From NCBI GenBank assembly GCA_029864465.1, contig JAOTTJ010000005.1:1-32980 (forward strand): a DNA stretch of 32,980 nucleotides, read 5' to 3'. Made by a program: the position numbers and the translations under genes. Origin of the DNA: Gammaproteobacteria bacterium (GTDB lineage: Bacteria; Pseudomonadota; Gammaproteobacteria; Steroidobacterales; Rariloculaceae). Shown one piece after another: positions 549 through 7,241 of this stretch. The notes beneath the pieces are model-generated. The model searched no databases and was not told where the DNA came from. It worked only from the letters and a program-made list of their open reading frames with translations. The stretch's first letter is position 1. The number at the start of each line of letters is the position of its first letter.

Positions 549-1172
549 ATGAATACTGCCGCAAGGGTTTGGCGCCACCCGCAAGTGCGCCGTGCGGTTA
601 CGACATTCTTGTTACTGGCCTTGGTTGCCTCGCCGGCGGCATGGGCCGAGAAGGCGTACCTTGCTGGCGGCTGTTTCTGGTGCATGGAATCCGACTTCGA
701 AGGCCTACCGGGCGTGCAAGACGTCGTTTCCGGCTTTACCGGTGGCACTGTCGAGAATCCGACCTACAACGGCAATCACACTGGCCATTACGAAGCCGTC
801 GAAATCACCTACGATCCCAGCATCGTCAGCTACCAGGATTTGTTGAATCATTACTGGGTCAATATCGATCCATTCGACGCGATCGGGCAATTCTGCGACA
901 AGGGCCCAAGCTATCGTGCTGCGATATTCGTTGCGACTCCAGAGGAGCGACGCCTCGCTGAGCAATCTAAGCAGAAAGTCCAAGCGATGTTTCCAGACGA
1001 ACAGGTGGTCACGGAAATTCTCGATGCGAGCATCTTCTATCCGATCACGGGCGACGAAAGTGCTCACCAGGACTACTACAAGAACAACCCTTTGCGCTAC
1101 AAGTTCTATCGCTATAGCTGCGGCCGCGATGCGCGCTTAGAGGAGATCTGGGGAGATCAAGCCACGCATTAG
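549..1172 (+). CDS. msrA: Peptide-methionine (S)-S-oxide reductase MsrA, exported form
   Basis: The protein reduces methionine-S-sulfoxide in oxidised proteins. The catalytic motif GCFWC follows immediately after a signal peptide (basic VWRHPQVRR, hydrophobic TFLLLALVASPAAWA, then EKAYLAGGCFWC), so it probably works in the periplasm. Further family motifs are GVQDVVSGFTGG, the GHYEAVEITYDP strand, FDAIGQFCDKGPSYR and SAHQDYY. A C-terminal Cys in YSCGRDARL is a likely resolving cysteine. I chose the ATG at 549 over the TTG at 504 because it gives a compact signal peptide; the longer start adds 15 residues of no clear use. At 207 residues it is of normal size. It follows mmsA by about 45 bp on the same strand, but no functional link is expected. 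Confidence 0.93.
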   Translation: MNTAARVWRHPQVRRAVTTFLLLALVASPAAWAEKAYLAGGCFWCMESDFEGLPGVQDVVSGFTGGTVENPTYNGNHTGHYEAVEITYDPSIVSYQDLLNHYWVNIDPFDAIGQFCDKGPSYRAAIFVATPEERRLAEQSKQKVQAMFPDEQVVTEILDASIFYPITGDESAHQDYYKNNPLRYKFYRYSCGRDARLEEIWGDQATH

Positions 1173-1251
1173 TTTGTTTCTTCAGTGCGCGCGGCTCGGG
1201 TGACGGTAAAGACCAAGTAAACCGAATCCAGTAGCTGGCGTTGCTGATGCC

Positions 1252-1269
1252 CGCTATTGGCCAATAGCG
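1252..1269. repeat. Perfect 18-bp palindrome (candidate operator)
   Basis: CGCTATTGGCCAATAGCG equals its own reverse complement over all 18 bases. It lies between the msrA stop and the start of the broken DUF2798 gene, about 110 bp upstream of the latter. The length and perfect two-fold symmetry fit a binding site for a dimeric regulator better than a terminator: there is no loop and no U-tract follows. The regulator is unknown and no second copy was noticed in the window. Confidence 0.4.
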
Positions 1270-1376
1270 CAAGCCGGTATCGAGTCTGGATAGAATTTGA
1301 GCATTAACTCCGCTGATCGACGGCCAGCGCGGCGAAGCATCCGGCGCCATTCTTCACTTAGCGGAGAACTATCGAA

Positions 1377-1634
1377 GTGAAAGTCAGAGTACACCGCGAT
1401 TTGCGTATGCTTGCATCGTGGGCCGGTCCCTTCGTGACACCGCTATTTCTCTCATTGTTCATGAGCGCGCTCGTGTCAATGATTGCCACTATTCAGGCGA
1501 TTTGAATCTCAGACGGTCTCATTGCTACCTGGAGTCGAGCCTGGCTCACGAGTTGGATGATCGCATTTTCAGTGCTGATGCTCGCGTTGCTGATCGTTAG
1601 ACGACTCGTTGCTGTAATCTGTCGTCCTGAATAG
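1377..1634 (+). pseudogene. DUF2798-family membrane protein interrupted by an in-frame TGA
   Basis: Reading from the GTG at 1377 (GGAG about 10 bases upstream) gives a protein of the DUF2798 pattern: FVTPLFLSLFMSALVSMIAT as the first membrane helix, then IQAI-stop-ISDGLIATWSRAWLTSW, then MIAFSVLMLALLIVRRLVA as the second helix, ending at TAG 1632-1634. DUF2798 proteins are small two-helix inner-membrane proteins of unknown function with an AW-x-x-SW segment before helix 2. The frame is open on both sides of one TGA (1503-1505), exactly at the loop between helices, so a single substitution is enough to explain the break. The ORF track misses it because the two halves are short; its 1418-1600 ORF is another frame of the same DNA. 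A base-calling error or readthrough are alternatives. The family assignment is from memory of the pattern. Confidence 0.6.
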
Positions 1635-2345
1635 CCTGGCACCAGATCGTATGCGTGACACCACAAGTCGTCGAATCGGGTACTGACGCGAGTGTCAGCT
1701 CCTGGCCGAGGCTGTGTGAATACGCTGATCTTCACCTCTACCAGAACCGCGCCATCAACCGCAACTACCTAAACAGCGTTGCCAAGTGGTAACGGGTCCT
1801 CTTCGGTCAAGCCCAGTCGGGCAGGCCAAGATTCGAGGCCGAGTCGGACTCTCATCGAGCGTGTGCTATCGCGTGAATGCGAAGTTACCTTGCCGACTGA
1901 GCCGATCAGATGTTCATTGACCGGCTTAGCCTCTCCTCCCGAGAGCCGTTCTAAAGCGTGAGCCAAATGCCGTCGCGCTTTCCTATGCCCGGACGGGCGG
2001 TCGCGAAGAGGAAGTCGGCGTTGAGCGGCGCCTAAGCTGCGATCGGCGGAGGTCGCTTCGTCTCCGGAACTTGCCATAACGGTTACCTCAGTTCCCGAAA
2101 CGAACGCCTTGATTTTGGCGGGCCGTGCCGGGTCGGACTCGCGGCCGTCGGATTCGCCTCTCACCTGTTGGCTGATGCGCAGGTATTCTCTCATGCTACG
2201 GAAATCACCACCGTCGCCATCGAGCGACAGCGCGCACTGGTAGAGAGTCTCGGCGTAGACTTAGTCTAATGGCAATTCACGATCAGCTCATGTTCGCGTC
2301 GCGGTTCAGTTTGGCAAATTTTGCTACTGAGAATATTTAGCATTT
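1635..2345. other. 711-bp stretch without a convincing gene
   Basis: No frame here gives a protein I recognise. The longest ORF (minus, 1769-2194) has low-complexity Arg/Ser-rich composition and no motif. In the plus strand, about 2125-2273 reads ATEITTVAIERQRALVESLG and stops at TAA. This resembles the NAD(P)-binding region of zinc-type (MDR) dehydrogenases, in which a Thr/Ser-rich turn is followed by a helix and an SLGAD motif. It may be a scrap of a decayed dehydrogenase gene, but the match is weak. The last 70 bases before 2346 are AT-rich and probably hold the promoter of the next gene. The stretch looks like decayed DNA. Confidence 0.35.
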
Positions 2346-3662
2346 ATGGACACTGACCTCTTAGCCTTTGCTATCTACGGGACGCCCTTCGCGCTGATCC
2401 TGCTGCTCTACATCCGAAAGCATCGGCGACAACAACGAGTGAGCGTGGAAACTTTTGCAGAAAGTCAAGAAGCTGGCCTTCTCGATCCCGCGTCCTTACA
2501 CCCGGTTATCAATCTCAATAGGTGTATTGGGTGCGGGTCTTGCGTGGCGGCCTGTCCAGAAATGCCTAAGCATCAGGTCCTCGGGCTGGTGAGGCGAAAG
2601 GCAAAACTGATTAGCCCCACTGACTGCATCGGTCACGGAGCCTGCAAAACCGCGTGTCCGGTCGATGCCATCACTCTGGTCTTCGGAACCGAGCGTCGCG
2701 GCGTCGATATCCCGAACATAAGGCCAAACTTTGAGACCAATGTTCCTGGAATTTTTATCGCCGGTGAGTTGGGCGGCATGGGTCTTATCCGAAACGCCAT
2801 CGAACAGGGCCGGCAAGCCATGGAATGCATCGTCGAGAAAGTGGATGGGACCCGCAACGGCTGTTTGGACGTCGTCATCGTTGGTGCCGGACCAGCGGGT
2901 ATCGCAGCATCGCTCGCCGCCAAGCAGCACAAACTAAACTTCGTCACGATGGACCAAGATTCGCTCGGCGGAACTGTGGCTAGTTTTCCACGCCGGAAAT
3001 TGGTTATGACGTCGCCGGCAACGTTACCGTTAGTGGGGAAGATGAAGTTCAGGGAAACAACGAAAGAAACGTTGCTGGCGTATTGGCAAGATATAGTAAA
3101 ACGCACTGATCTGAAGATTAGCTTCCAAGAAAGGCTGGAGTCTATCAATAGACACAACGGCAGTTTCAATGTGGTCACAAATCAGAACCAATACGCCGCA
3201 CACGCAGTATTACTGGCAATCGGCCGGCGCGGGACTCCACGAAAACTCGGTGTACCGGGGGAGGAACTATCCAAGGTCACGTATCGATTGATAGACCCGG
3301 AGCAATACAGCAGTTTGAAAGTGCTCGTTGTTGGCGGCGGCGACAGTGCCCTCGAATGCGCGTTGATGCTCAGCGAGCAACCCGGAACAACGGTTACTCT
3401 CTCGTATAGATCGCAAGCATTTTCACGTGCAAAGAAGAAGAACAGACTGAAACTCGAGAATGCCGGTCGCGAAGGCCGCATTGAGATTCTGCTCGAATCT
3501 AACGTTAAATCCATCGCCGAGGAGTATGTTGAGATTGAACAAAAGGGCCAGCTACTGCGCATTGCAAACGATGCGATCATCATAAGCGCCGGAGGCATAC
3601 TGCCCACGGGATTTCTGAAGGAACTAGGTATTGAGATAGAAACCAAACACGGGACTGCCTAG
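2346..3662 (+). CDS. Membrane-anchored ferredoxin-flavoprotein oxidoreductase (thioredoxin reductase-like fold, permuted motif order)
   Basis: A 438-residue protein. Residues 5-24 form one N-terminal membrane helix with a basic cytoplasmic edge (RKHRRQQR). Residues 60-104 hold a two-cluster ferredoxin domain: C60-IGC-GSC-VAAC is canonical, while the second site reads C94-IGHGAC-KTAC, with His97 where the second Cys is expected. Then VPGIFIAGELGG (about 133-144), which resembles the motif that normally ends FAD/NAD(P)H disulfide reductases, comes before the FAD Rossmann motif VIVGAGPAG (about 177-185). LLAIGRRG follows, then the NAD(P)H motif VVGGGDSALE (about 328-337) and ISAGG near the end. 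The redox-active CxxC of thioredoxin reductase is absent, so it is not a thioredoxin reductase. It probably passes electrons from NAD(P)H through FAD and FeS to a partner. The globin gene 75 bp downstream is the obvious candidate. The ATG has only a weak ribosome site. Confidence 0.8.
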   Translation: MDTDLLAFAIYGTPFALILLLYIRKHRRQQRVSVETFAESQEAGLLDPASLHPVINLNRCIGCGSCVAACPEMPKHQVLGLVRRKAKLISPTDCIGHGACKTACPVDAITLVFGTERRGVDIPNIRPNFETNVPGIFIAGELGGMGLIRNAIEQGRQAMECIVEKVDGTRNGCLDVVIVGAGPAGIAASLAAKQHKLNFVTMDQDSLGGTVASFPRRKLVMTSPATLPLVGKMKFRETTKETLLAYWQDIVKRTDLKISFQERLESINRHNGSFNVVTNQNQYAAHAVLLAIGRRGTPRKLGVPGEELSKVTYRLIDPEQYSSLKVLVVGGGDSALECALMLSEQPGTTVTLSYRSQAFSRAKKKNRLKLENAGREGRIEILLESNVKSIAEEYVEIEQKGQLLRIANDAIIISAGGILPTGFLKELGIEIETKHGTA

Positions 3663-3736
3663 TACCTGAGACGCAAAGGCCCAGCCCTGATTAACTGTCT
3701 CCGTAGCCGATAGGAATCGATTCAAGAGGTAGAAAT

Positions 3737-4525
3737 ATGCCGCATACACAATTGATGGAGGAGCGTCTTAGGTTCCTGCAAATCGATCACAATACCTTGT
3801 CGGAGCTACGACAAGCCAAAGAATTTCTCGAACCGGCAATGGACGAATTGTTGGATCGATTCTACTCGCACTTACTCGGGGAACCCGATCTACGAGCGCT
3901 CTTTGCCGATGAAGACGCAATCGATCGCGCCCGTTCAGCGCAAAAGAATCATTGGCTCAAGACACTGTTCGAAGGCAAGTTTGACAACACGTACTTTGAG
4001 AAGGCGGGTCAGATCGGTCGCGCTCATTTCCGCGTAGGCCTGACACCAAATTGGTATATCGCCGGCTATTGCCAGATGCTCGGTCAGTTTATTGAGCTGA
4101 TTTCAAACGAATACTCCAACAGAGGCAAGCCAGCAACTCAGATTATCCAGGCGGTCAGTAGAGCCATATTTCTCGACATCGATTTGGTCATCCACTGCTA
4201 TCTCGATGCTAAAGACAGCTATATGCGACAGATTTTGCGCCACGCGACCGAGTTCACGGCCGATGTGACGGCACTTGGTGATGAACTAAGCGCTTCGGCG
4301 ACACAGATTAATGCCACCGCTGAAACGTTGTCGGCACACGCGGGCAACGCAGCTGAGCAAATAAGCGAGTTACTAGCGCAAGCCGCACAATTGACCCGCC
4401 AGACGGAGCAGCTAGATGCGCGCCTCAAGGAGCTGCAGTTCCGCGACAAACTATACATTGACGAGAGCACTCCGGAGTCTGGAACGATTTCGCGCTTGAA
4501 GGCTCTAGTATTGGGCAAGAAGTAA
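3737..4525 (+). CDS. Protoglobin (globin-coupled sensor type) with a short transducer-like coiled coil
   Basis: Residues about 10-160 form a globin of the sensor/protoglobin family. Tyr43 in LLDRFYSHL is the expected distal B10 tyrosine. His97 in IGRAHFRVGLTPNWYIAGY is the proximal haem ligand in the family's H-x-R-x-GL-x-P-x-WY-I pattern. The remainder (about 165-262) is coiled coil of the chemoreceptor kind (SASATQINATAETLSAHAGN, then EQISELLAQAAQLTRQTEQL). It is only about 95 residues long and lacks the methyl-accepting hairpin tip, and there is no GGDEF, kinase or other output domain. It probably binds O2, NO or CO in the cytoplasm and signals by protein contact, or acts as an enzyme. AGAGGT lies 7 bases before the ATG. 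It follows the FeS-flavoprotein by 75 bp on the same strand, likely one transcript. Signalling versus NO/O2 chemistry cannot be decided from sequence. Confidence 0.85.
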   Translation: MPHTQLMEERLRFLQIDHNTLSELRQAKEFLEPAMDELLDRFYSHLLGEPDLRALFADEDAIDRARSAQKNHWLKTLFEGKFDNTYFEKAGQIGRAHFRVGLTPNWYIAGYCQMLGQFIELISNEYSNRGKPATQIIQAVSRAIFLDIDLVIHCYLDAKDSYMRQILRHATEFTADVTALGDELSASATQINATAETLSAHAGNAAEQISELLAQAAQLTRQTEQLDARLKELQFRDKLYIDESTPESGTISRLKALVLGKK

Positions 4526-4678
4526 TGTCACAAAAACTGCTGTGCGCGGCGTCTATGTCATGCAGGCTTCGACCCTAATAGGTCACGCTGAATCGCGTCC
4601 AATCAGGCTGTACTGGAACTTTCTAGGAAGGTTTCGTCAGGTAGCGGCTATAACTAGCGGCAGCAGGCGTTCATCGTC

Positions 4679-4885
4679 GCAGCTGATCTGCTCCCCTTTT
4701 TTGGCGTGATGAAACGAGAGCGAGTGAACCGTGTGCGCTACCGAAATCGAGACGAAGCTCGAGCGGATATATTTGAATACTTTGAGTGTTTTTATAATCG
4801 GAAACGCCGTCATGGCTATCTTGGCAATATCAGCCCGGCGGCGCTCGAGAAGCGAGTAGCCGGTCGATGCGAAACGGTCCATTGA
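4679..4885 (+). pseudogene. IS3-family transposase (OrfB) C-terminal remnant
   Basis: The frame through the ATG at 4709 reads PFFGVMKRERVNRVRYRN, then ADIFEYFECFYNRKRRHGYL and ISPAALEKR before TGA. This is the end of the IS3-family rve integrase: the basic LKRERV segment, the EYIE-x-FYN-x-RRH motif and the SP-x-x-(F/Y)E close. Only the last 60-70 residues remain. An in-frame stop lies just upstream (4655-4657), and the DDE catalytic residues and OrfA are gone, so it cannot be active. The minus-strand ORF 4637-4882 in the track is its antisense shadow. It marks past insertion in this accessory stretch. Confidence 0.85.
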
Positions 4886-4943
4886 CGCGTTACAAAACCA
4901 TCTGGCCGAAAGCAGACATTCAATCAGAAGCCGGATGGGCGAT

Positions 4944-4962
4944 ATTTGAGCGGCAGCTTCCG
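4944..4962 (+). repeat. Dispersed short repeat, copy 1
   Basis: ATTTGAGCGGCAGCTTCCG matches 5648-5666 (ATTTGAACGGCAGCTTTCG) at 17 of 19 positions. Both copies lie in non-coding DNA on the same strand and about 0.7 kb apart, flanking the 5067-5552 gene. Copy 1 is preceded by GCCGAAAGCAGACATTCA, which looks partly complementary to the core and may form a long-range stem. Confidence 0.45.
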
Positions 4963-5066
4963 ACCCATTAGAGACACGTTAATTGTGTGGGGAGTTTACC
5001 GAGGCTTGTAAGAGTTTCTGTAACGGCTGGAAATGGCGAGAGGCGTAGTTCTGAATAACAATCACA

Positions 5067-5552
5067 GTGTTAGCCGGAAAAACTAATTTTCGCGCTCATA
5101 AGTGGGGCCGTTTCGTCGTCACCTTAGCCCTCTTTCTGCTTTGGTCGAGTGCGGCCCATGCACAGAGGATCCCCTTGATCCTTGTTGGGGTGGCTGGTAC
5201 CAGCCTCCTTGCACCGTTTGTTGCTGTGCCGGTCAAAGTTGTGATCCTCCGTCTGCTTACCGCTAAGGCTGGGGCCTCTCGTTTGTGGTTTATCAGTGCA
5301 ATCGAATGGGTGCTTTGGTTCCCAGTGACTGTGATCGCGGTTGTATCCAGCGGTCCATTCGCTGTGCCGCTCGTCGTCCCGTTACTGCTGGCCACGGCAG
5401 TTTGGCTGCATAGAGAACGCGTGGATAACGCTTCATGGGGCTCTGCGCTACTTTTGTCCCTCCCCACACCGATTCTGGCGGTTGCGATACCGTCTCTAGC
5501 CTTTGTCTCAGCCCCCTTGCTGGAAGACTACCTTCCGACTTGGCTCCTTTAG
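5067..5552 (+). CDS. Hypothetical inner-membrane protein, 161 aa
   Basis: I do not recognise the family. The N-terminus has a signal-like segment (WGRFVVTLALFLLWSSAAHA) followed by a hydrophobic stretch RIPLILVGVAGTSLLAPFVA, and two or three more predicted helices (IEWVLWFPVTVIAVVSSG, FAVPLVVPLLLATAVWL, LLLSLPTPILAVAIPSLAFV). The end is LPTWLL. It is therefore probably an integral membrane protein with four to five helices. The start in the track is a GTG with no good ribosome site; a start further in cannot be excluded. It stands alone between two copies of a short repeat, downstream of the IS remnant, which suggests accessory DNA. Confidence 0.55.
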   Translation: MLAGKTNFRAHKWGRFVVTLALFLLWSSAAHAQRIPLILVGVAGTSLLAPFVAVPVKVVILRLLTAKAGASRLWFISAIEWVLWFPVTVIAVVSSGPFAVPLVVPLLLATAVWLHRERVDNASWGSALLLSLPTPILAVAIPSLAFVSAPLLEDYLPTWLL

Positions 5553-5647
5553 CAGCGTGAGGACGGAACGCCAGGTAAGGGTTGGCTTGGCCGGGAATGC
5601 CGCCTTCTGGCCGATTGGCGCCATAGCGCCCGCCTGAATTCGAGCAG

Positions 5648-5674
5648 ATTTGAACGGCAGCTTTCGGGGGGGGG
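5648..5674 (+). repeat. Dispersed short repeat, copy 2, running into a G9 tract
   Basis: ATTTGAACGGCAGCTTTCG is the partner of 4944-4962. It ends in nine consecutive G residues (5666-5674), an unusual homopolymer for this window and a likely slippage site. It lies in the gap between two small membrane protein genes and not in a supported reading frame. Confidence 0.45.
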
Positions 5675-5768
5675 CTGAAATCGGGCGGAAACGTGACGGG
5701 TCTCGCAGTGGCCCTTGGCTAGTTGCACTTAACGTGATCAAGCATGTGTTCTTCCCTGAGTGCCTCAA

Positions 5769-5966
5769 ATGCTCAAGATATGGTTATCCTCGAGGCTATA
5801 CCGGCTTCTTCCTCTCGTTTATCTTCTGTCCGGCTCGCTGATGCTCGCCCTGTTCGGCAACCAACCTTTGGGCCGTCTTAGCGGGTTATTGTTATGCGCT
5901 GCAGCGGTTTTGGTTTGGGTGTTGAGATTTCACGCGCGTAGTAAAACTTCTGCTCGTCGCCGATGA
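5769..5966 (+). CDS. Small hypothetical membrane protein, about 65 aa
   Basis: The protein begins MLKIWLSSRLYRLLPLVYLL (or MPQ earlier, from a GTG at 5760) and has two closely spaced hydrophobic segments, RLLPLVYLLSGSLMLALFG and LSGLLLCAAAVLVWVL, then a basic tail HARSKTSARRR. This two-helix layout with a positive C-terminal tail is common for small inner-membrane proteins of unknown function. I cannot name a family. The ATG at 5769 is preferred because it is the first ATG; no strong ribosome site supports either start. The overlapping ORF 5650-5841 in another frame has no such structure. Confidence 0.45.
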   Translation: MLKIWLSSRLYRLLPLVYLLSGSLMLALFGNQPLGRLSGLLLCAAAVLVWVLRFHARSKTSARRR

Positions 5967-6170
5967 GTCCCTGCCTGGTCGAAACGACCTATCCCCTTAA
6001 ACCGGCTGGACATGCATAGAAAACCAACGTAAACAAAGCGACGCCGTAGCAATGCGACCCCGAGGTTGCCCGGCGCTGTGTTTCTCGATGAAATCTGCCA
6101 GGCGAACTATGCTATTTTCGATGTCCGCGCATGACCGCGGTAGCGTCTGGCAGGGCAGAGGAGACAGGCA

Positions 6171-7241
6171 GTGACCGTAAGGACGAGGCTCGAACAAATG
6201 GTTGGAGACTGCGTCAGTTTCGCTGTCGTTGGGTTTCTGTTCGTAGCTTCGGCGCAGGGTCATCACAGTGACGCGGGGCTAGATATGGAGTCGGTCGTCA
6301 TGCTCGAAGGGACTATCACCGAGTATAGTTGGCGGAACCCACACATCTATTTCACGGTCGAGACAACGGACGATCGTGGCGAACGCGTCGAGTGGTTGGT
6401 GCAAACCAGTCCAATCATCTCGGCGACCCGTCGAGGTTGGACGCGCGAGTCGTTAGCGATCGGGGAGCGCGTATTTGTCGAGGCTCACCCCGCTAGGGAT
6501 GGCCGACCGTATGCACTGCTGTACGCGATCGAGAAGGAGGGCGGCATCGTGTTGGGTACGGCAGCGAGGCCTGCGAGCGATCGTCCTGCCGAGCCTGAGA
6601 GTACGGCCAGCACCACCACGCTGGCTGGGATCTGGATGGCAGACCGTACAGAGCTCGTCAGCTACCCGGGCGGATTCGACGGCTTCTTCCACGCTCACTT
6701 GCAGCTGACCGAGGAGGGTGCGGCAGCCCAGGCCGCATACGACCCGCTATCGGCTGAGAACCCGGAGTCCAAATGCATCGGGCGTCCAACGCCCGCGATG
6801 ATCGTATCCAGCGATCTGTTTCCAATGCAGATCGAGATCGATGAGTCCGAAGACATCATCATGATTCGTAGTGGGTTCTGGGACGAGGAGCGCACGGTAT
6901 TCATGGATGGCCGCATGCACCCCGAGCCCAACGAGCGCTCACTCAGCGGCCACTCGATCGGCAGGTGGGAGGGCGAGACGTTGGTTGTGGATACGACGAA
7001 TTTCGCAGATCATCGTTCGCCTTATCAGATTGGTGTGCCCTCGGGATCTGGGAAGCATGTCGTGGAGCGATACCGGCTCAACGACGAGGGTACGCGCATT
7101 ATCGTGGACTTCATGCTCGAGGACCCGCAATTCTTGTCCGAGCCCGTCAACCACTCCCGCGAGTTGGTCTACTCGCCGCATCTAGAGATCCTGCCATACA
7201 ACTGCGATATGGATTCGACGAGTCGCTTTCTGCGTCCATAG
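6171..7241 (+). CDS. Secreted DUF6152-type protein with a second conserved C-terminal domain
   Basis: A GTG start with GGAG about 8 bases upstream precedes a signal peptide (CVSFAVVGFLFVASAQG), so the mature protein begins HHSDAGLDMES. Residues about 30-125 follow the DUF6152 pattern: HH near the mature N-terminus, then LEGTITEYSWRNPHIYF, and a VFVEAHPARDG-type strand. Such proteins resemble small beta-barrel domains whose role is unknown. After a Pro/Ser/Thr linker, residues about 150-356 belong to another family often found in environmental proteobacteria, with FMDGRMHPEP, GHSIGRWEGETLVVDTTNF, HVVERYRL and FMLEDPQFLSEP. The two parts are fused here. The protein is probably periplasmic. It stands alone and its substrate or partner cannot be read from context. 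Confidence 0.7.
   Translation: MTVRTRLEQMVGDCVSFAVVGFLFVASAQGHHSDAGLDMESVVMLEGTITEYSWRNPHIYFTVETTDDRGERVEWLVQTSPIISATRRGWTRESLAIGERVFVEAHPARDGRPYALLYAIEKEGGIVLGTAARPASDRPAEPESTASTTTLAGIWMADRTELVSYPGGFDGFFHAHLQLTEEGAAAQAAYDPLSAENPESKCIGRPTPAMIVSSDLFPMQIEIDESEDIIMIRSGFWDEERTVFMDGRMHPEPNERSLSGHSIGRWEGETLVVDTTNFADHRSPYQIGVPSGSGKHVVERYRLNDEGTRIIVDFMLEDPQFLSEPVNHSRELVYSPHLEILPYNCDMDSTSRFLRP

Follow-up and report, generated by a model that had tools for sequence, protein, structure and literature searches.

A rare gene pair of a membrane-anchored FeS-flavoprotein and a short-tailed globin in a gammaproteobacterium

When the gene for a reductase lies directly ahead of that for a globin, does the first protein supply electrons to the haem of the second, or have two independent genes been caught side by side? 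The question is raised by a stretch of gammaproteobacterial DNA 32,980 nucleotides long (the window). On its forward strand, to which all features of the pair belong, an open reading frame for a membrane-anchored FeS/FAD/NAD(P) reductase of 438 amino acids (2346-3662; Pfam Pyr_redox_3 and Fer4; 57-86% identity to 40 homologues) is followed by one for a short-tailed protoglobin/HemAT-like globin of 262 amino acids (3737-4525; Pfam Protoglobin and HemAT 1or4; orthologues at 38-52% identity). The reductase stop and the globin start are separated by 74 nt, and a ribosome site, AGAGG (3725-3729), stands 7 nt upstream of the globin ATG, which confirms the layout given in an earlier note on this DNA (same strand, about 75 bp apart, good ribosome site). 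The pair is real, conserved but rare; it combines two known families, each represented by an unusual variant, and it is not a flavohaemoglobin.

Two unusual members of known families

The reductase begins with a predicted transmembrane helix (residues 5-23, 2358-2414; mean hydropathy 2.21; helix over residues 3-43 in the model) followed by RKHRRQQR, an arrangement that should place the redox domains in the cytoplasm. Two FeS motifs come next, assigned from the sequence and from column counts over 41 homologues. The first (CxxCxxCxxxCP, residues 60-71, 2523-2558) has the standard form, CIGCGSCVAACP. In the second (CxxHxxCxxxCP, residues 94-105, 2625-2660; CIGHGACKTACP), His 97 replaces the second cysteine in 41 of 41 aligned family members, and the label of a plain 2x[4Fe-4S] ferredoxin is therefore an assumption. 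Of the membrane-anchored 2x[4Fe-4S]/FAD/NAD(P)H reductase described in the earlier note, the helix, the FAD and NAD(P) domains and the first motif stand, while the cluster content is assumed.

The FAD and NAD(P) domains (residues 175-435, 2868-3650) are YpdA/TrxR-like. Phmmer aligns them to 7a76 (E 3e-28), Pfam identifies Pyr_redox_3 (E 7.6e-42) together with several Fer4 models, and the closest folds are flavoproteins of the YpdA/TrxR type. The protein falls outside YpdA itself, with 177.9 bits (E 2.1e-52) against a cut-off of 339.9 for the NCBIfam model TIGR04018. It has the motif GAGPAG, not GGGPCG, and the active-site cysteine is absent at that position in all 41 aligned sequences. Ahead of the GxGxxG domain lies a segment (2727-2837) like the C-terminal FAD-binding part of YpdA; residues 128-164 pair with YpdA 282-319 in a weak second alignment domain, and FIAGELGG is conserved in 41 homologues. 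The occurrence of this YpdA-terminal FAD segment (GIFIAGE-like) before GxGxxG suggests a circular permutation of the FAD domain that would be common to the reductase family.

The window reductase deviates at 7 of 190 conserved family columns, and changes specific to the pair are confined to three columns. Compared with L005, the one other locus with the pair, the reductase has an omega of 0.17 and the globin, over its 73 comparable residues, one of 0.32. Both genes are intact and under purifying selection, and they look functional. The idea that the reductase is a degenerate paralogue was ruled out by omega and by the conserved columns.

The globin matches Pfam Protoglobin (PF11563) with E 2.9e-40 and 138 bits (cut-off 25) and HemAT 1or4 with E 1.3e-14. 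With its proximal haem ligand His 97 (F8 position, 4025-4027; aligned with HemAT) it belongs among the protoglobins, and both this residue and the distal Tyr 43 (B10 position, 3863-3865; aligned with the FY of HemAT) are invariant in six orthologues. A long tail helix follows (residues 163-239, 4223-4453), MCP-like but without the receptor tip, QTNLLALNA, to which HemAT-type relatives run on. The helix is present in a model made from the single sequence (pLDDT 70.9), on whose tail geometry we did not rely for that reason. Orthologues conserve the tail, including its C-terminal residues. Outside the order, the globin is closest to long receptors of the HemAT type, mostly with this tip; the window protein ends after the first part of the helix, and its 262 amino acids hold no full C-terminal MCP transmitter. 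The short transducer-like tail that the earlier note had described is thus borne out, as that of a HemAT relative lacking the tip. Full-length short-tailed orthologues occur in five genomes of the same order (38-52% identity), and a partial one stands at the end of the L005 contig. Searched against plasmids, the window globin gave weak best matches (about 24-33% identity), the annotated ones being chemoreceptors or globin-coupled sensors.

The same note had proposed a flavohaemoglobin-like module. A true split flavohaemoglobin, that is, a two-protein NO dioxygenase homologous to Hmp, would agree with the presence of the same cofactor set across two adjacent proteins, but we consider it very improbable. 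The globin is not of the flavohaemoglobin/Vitreoscilla class but of the protoglobin/sensor class (best matches Protoglobin and HemAT/AfGcHK), and in place of a single chain with an FNR-type FAD/NAD reductase there are two open reading frames, with a YpdA/TrxR-like, FeS-containing flavoprotein (Pyr_redox_3/YpdA match). For kinship with flavohaemoglobin, the globin and the flavoprotein are thus both of the wrong class.

Neighbourhoods of the two genes

By full-length homology and conserved motifs, the window reductase belongs to a cytochrome-linked FeS-flavoprotein family defined in this analysis (57-86% identity, 40 loci), and this family is widespread. We surveyed 80 public reductase loci, of which 58 had enough upstream DNA and 60 were scored downstream. 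A cytochrome cluster lies upstream in 52 of the 58 informative loci (multihaem cytochromes in 49, a membrane protein in 42), and an ankyrin-repeat gene lies downstream in 46 of the 60. The family can be taken as the marker of a gene cluster that is widespread and encodes cytochromes very rich in haem. None of the 60 downstream stretches contains a globin (these 60 do not include L005, where the contig breaks off within the globin). Tblastn found no cytochrome, membrane-protein or TPR partner in the window, where the multihaem-cytochrome neighbourhood is accordingly missing; with an ankyrin query the one match, at 8824-8456, was weak.

The window's genome (G000) holds a second, cytochrome-linked reductase with 63% identity to the window copy, as likewise do its two congeners. 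At this canonical locus (L122), the two cytochromes have 21 and 29 CxxCH motifs. Both there (1149-6565) and in most of L006-L084, the cluster is divergent, with c-type cytochromes very rich in haem, a membrane protein and a TPR protein encoded opposite the FeS-flavoprotein. Five histidines are conserved in the membrane-protein family, for which neither Pfam nor NCBIfam gave a match, and the TPR protein resembles CcmH only weakly. The canonical reductase of G000 (L122 6659-7738) carries an arginine at the first cysteine of its second FeS motif (DRIGHGAC), a position occupied by cysteine in all 41 sequences of alignment A2. Elsewhere in the window, a DUF6152-type gene (6171-7241) belongs to a strongly expanded family, with at least 53 copies in G000, 67 in G001, 26 in G002 and 8 in G003, and no copy in G053, G595, G677 or G760.

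Adjacency of the two genes was found at 1 of the 80 public reductase loci and at two of the seven short-tailed globin loci (the window and L005). For the other five globins the reductase is on another contig, a reductase of the same family being present in all seven genomes. The earlier note had held that near absence of such adjacency among homologues would tell against a partnership, and at the family level this is largely what we observed; the exact pair is, at the same time, kept in a single further genome, where the genes upstream differ. Searches with the window globin of 58 genomes of relatives, 369 of the class, 396 of the order, 107 of the family and 109 from G760's order (G760 being the MAG in which L005 lies) gave no further adjacent pair, nor did a six-member globin profile run against 399 genomes of the phylum.

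The DNA of L005 is 83.7% identical to window positions 2212-3957 with unchanged spacing, and the two reductases share 86% amino acid identity; the gene upstream is gdhA in L005 and msrA in the window. In the reductase tree the two cluster together (100/99), joined by L006 at full support. We searched G760 as a genome of a different order; compared with the window, identity is 47% for dnaX and 64% for PEP synthase, although the latter may be a paralogue. Given the different orders, and 47% identity for dnaX against 86% for the reductase, the pair probably moved between bacteria horizontally as one unit, unless the L005 contig is mis-binned. Mis-binning is possible; the case for transfer would then be weaker, and what remains would be two related copies from a single event.

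A serious alternative is incidental co-transfer, with both genes caught on one mobile stretch but independent, the reductase serving multihaem cytochromes and the globin acting alone. The C-terminal remnant of an IS3-type transposase lies directly downstream of the globin (4661-4885, forward strand; rve_2 E 1.8e-11), the canonical cytochrome cluster is found elsewhere in G000, adjacency is rare family-wide, and the paired reductase is almost without specialised change. Incidental linkage sits poorly with the persistence of the exact spacing and both reading frames at a dS of about 0.4-0.5 in two genomes with different upstream flanks, and we regard it as possible but on balance doubtful.

Within the gap, the first half is poorly conserved relative to L005, whereas in the second half (3703-3736) 32 of 34 bases are identical. 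The conserved stretch comprises the ribosome site and a palindrome, GAATCGATTC (3714-3723), that occurs once in the window, and it could be a separate control element near the globin start. No sigma-70 promoter or terminator-like site was found in the gap, FNR/DNR-type sites showed no excess over chance and none lay in the gap, and no RNA structure was detected there (z-score 0.70).

The most recurrent other neighbour of the short-tailed globin is glutamate dehydrogenase (GDH). Three of the seven globin loci adjoin GDH genes, which are of two different subfamilies (globin/GDH loci L116 9706-10500 and 8351-9709, L118 9583-11669 and L005 578-1933). G595 has an NADP-GDH gene whose start overlaps the stop codon of the globin (...GAATGATGG...). 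In G677 the gene preceding the globin, after a gap of 20-30 nt, encodes a GDH of another subfamily, and the NADP-GDH of L005, which shares 78% identity with the G595 enzyme, is divergent to the pair. Three of seven is well above expectation if a genome of some thousands of genes has one to three for GDH, but the test is post hoc, and G595 and L005 share their GDH type. Among the papers listed in a literature search, none was directly relevant to globins with GDH or to protoglobin reductase operons. In G053 the gene after the globin, on the same strand, encodes a membrane diguanylate cyclase (L117 8157-9500).

The GDH neighbours could be explained if the short-tailed globin were a gas-responsive regulator of NAD(P)-linked enzymes, in which O2 or NO would shift a tail docking GDH in some species and the FeS-flavoprotein in the window, acting allosterically with no electron transfer to the haem. 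The conserved tail and C-terminal residues, and the origin in a sensor family without the MCP tip, are consistent with such regulation. The count covers few loci and was post hoc, no GDH match was obtained in G000 or G729 with the query used, and in G643 and G053 the GDH genes are on other contigs, away from the globin; we think this reading rather unlikely. Less likely again is a general scheme in which tip-less HemAT-derived globins are gas- or redox-responsive adaptors that left chemotaxis and control two kinds of GDH as well as a membrane FeS-flavoprotein from a multihaem electron conduit. If the GDH link is real, gas sensing would be tied directly to nitrogen metabolism.

A possible electron supply to the globin haem

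The explanation that we tentatively favour is that the reductase keeps the globin haem ferrous and that the pair is a small unit inherited together. An additional copy of the membrane-anchored NAD(P)H:FeS flavoprotein, whose relatives elsewhere stand beside a periplasmic multihaem cytochrome chain, would have been coupled to a soluble truncated HemAT-type globin. Electrons would pass from NAD(P)H through FAD and the FeS clusters to the globin haem, which in its ferrous state would bind O2 or NO; the ferrous globin might serve turnover (removal of NO or O2) or the resetting of a gas sensor. What we infer here covers transcription of the two genes together, their products forming a complex, the passage of electrons, the identity of the ligand and the role in the cell's physiology.

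Electron supply is favoured by the conserved order and spacing, by purifying selection and by the retention of the haem residues and reductase motifs, and the cytoplasmic placement of both proteins fits it. Also in its favour are the probable transfer of the pair as a unit, the lack of a terminator-like site in the gap, the occurrence of the reductase family in every genome with a short-tailed globin, and the persistence of a cytochrome-linked reductase copy elsewhere in G000. A precedent comes from Legionella, where a bicistronic operon under NsrR control joins GlbN to a ferredoxin reductase (PMC3820574). Against electron supply stands the rarity of adjacency (five of seven globins not beside the reductase, one of 80 reductase loci with a globin). 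The recurrence of the globin beside GDH implies that it does not need a reductase partner nearby and, with the rare pairing, suggests that several NAD(P)-linked enzymes may be its targets or partners. The few pair-specific columns of the reductase give no sign of a new docking surface, the conserved gap near the globin start could mean separate control, and L005 may be mis-binned.

Comparison with known systems

The cytochrome-linked FeS-flavoproteins (for example at L122 and L030) have the protein architecture of the window reductase, with 57-70% identity. As exemplified by L122, they are divergent from two multihaem cytochrome genes, a His-rich membrane protein and a CcmH-like TPR protein and, unlike the window copy, have no globin. 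The YpdA/Bdr bacillithiol disulphide reductases and FNR2-type reductases share the FAD/NAD(P) fold; the window reductase differs from them in having no active-site cysteine in GxGPxG, an added FeS domain and membrane helix, and an apparent circular permutation.

HemAT-type globin-coupled sensors have the globin domain and the first part of the helical transmitter in common with the window globin, but are about 440-620 amino acids long and carry the QTNLLALNA tip. Hmp resembles the pair in combining a globin, FAD and an NAD(P)H site in the cytoplasm, whereas the window pair consists of two chains, with a sensor-class globin and a permuted TrxR/YpdA-like flavoprotein bearing FeS clusters and a membrane anchor. 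The Legionella GlbN-ferredoxin reductase operon (PMC3820574) shares with the window separate tandem genes for a globin and an NAD(P)H reductase, although its products are a truncated 2/2 globin and a soluble FNR-type reductase.
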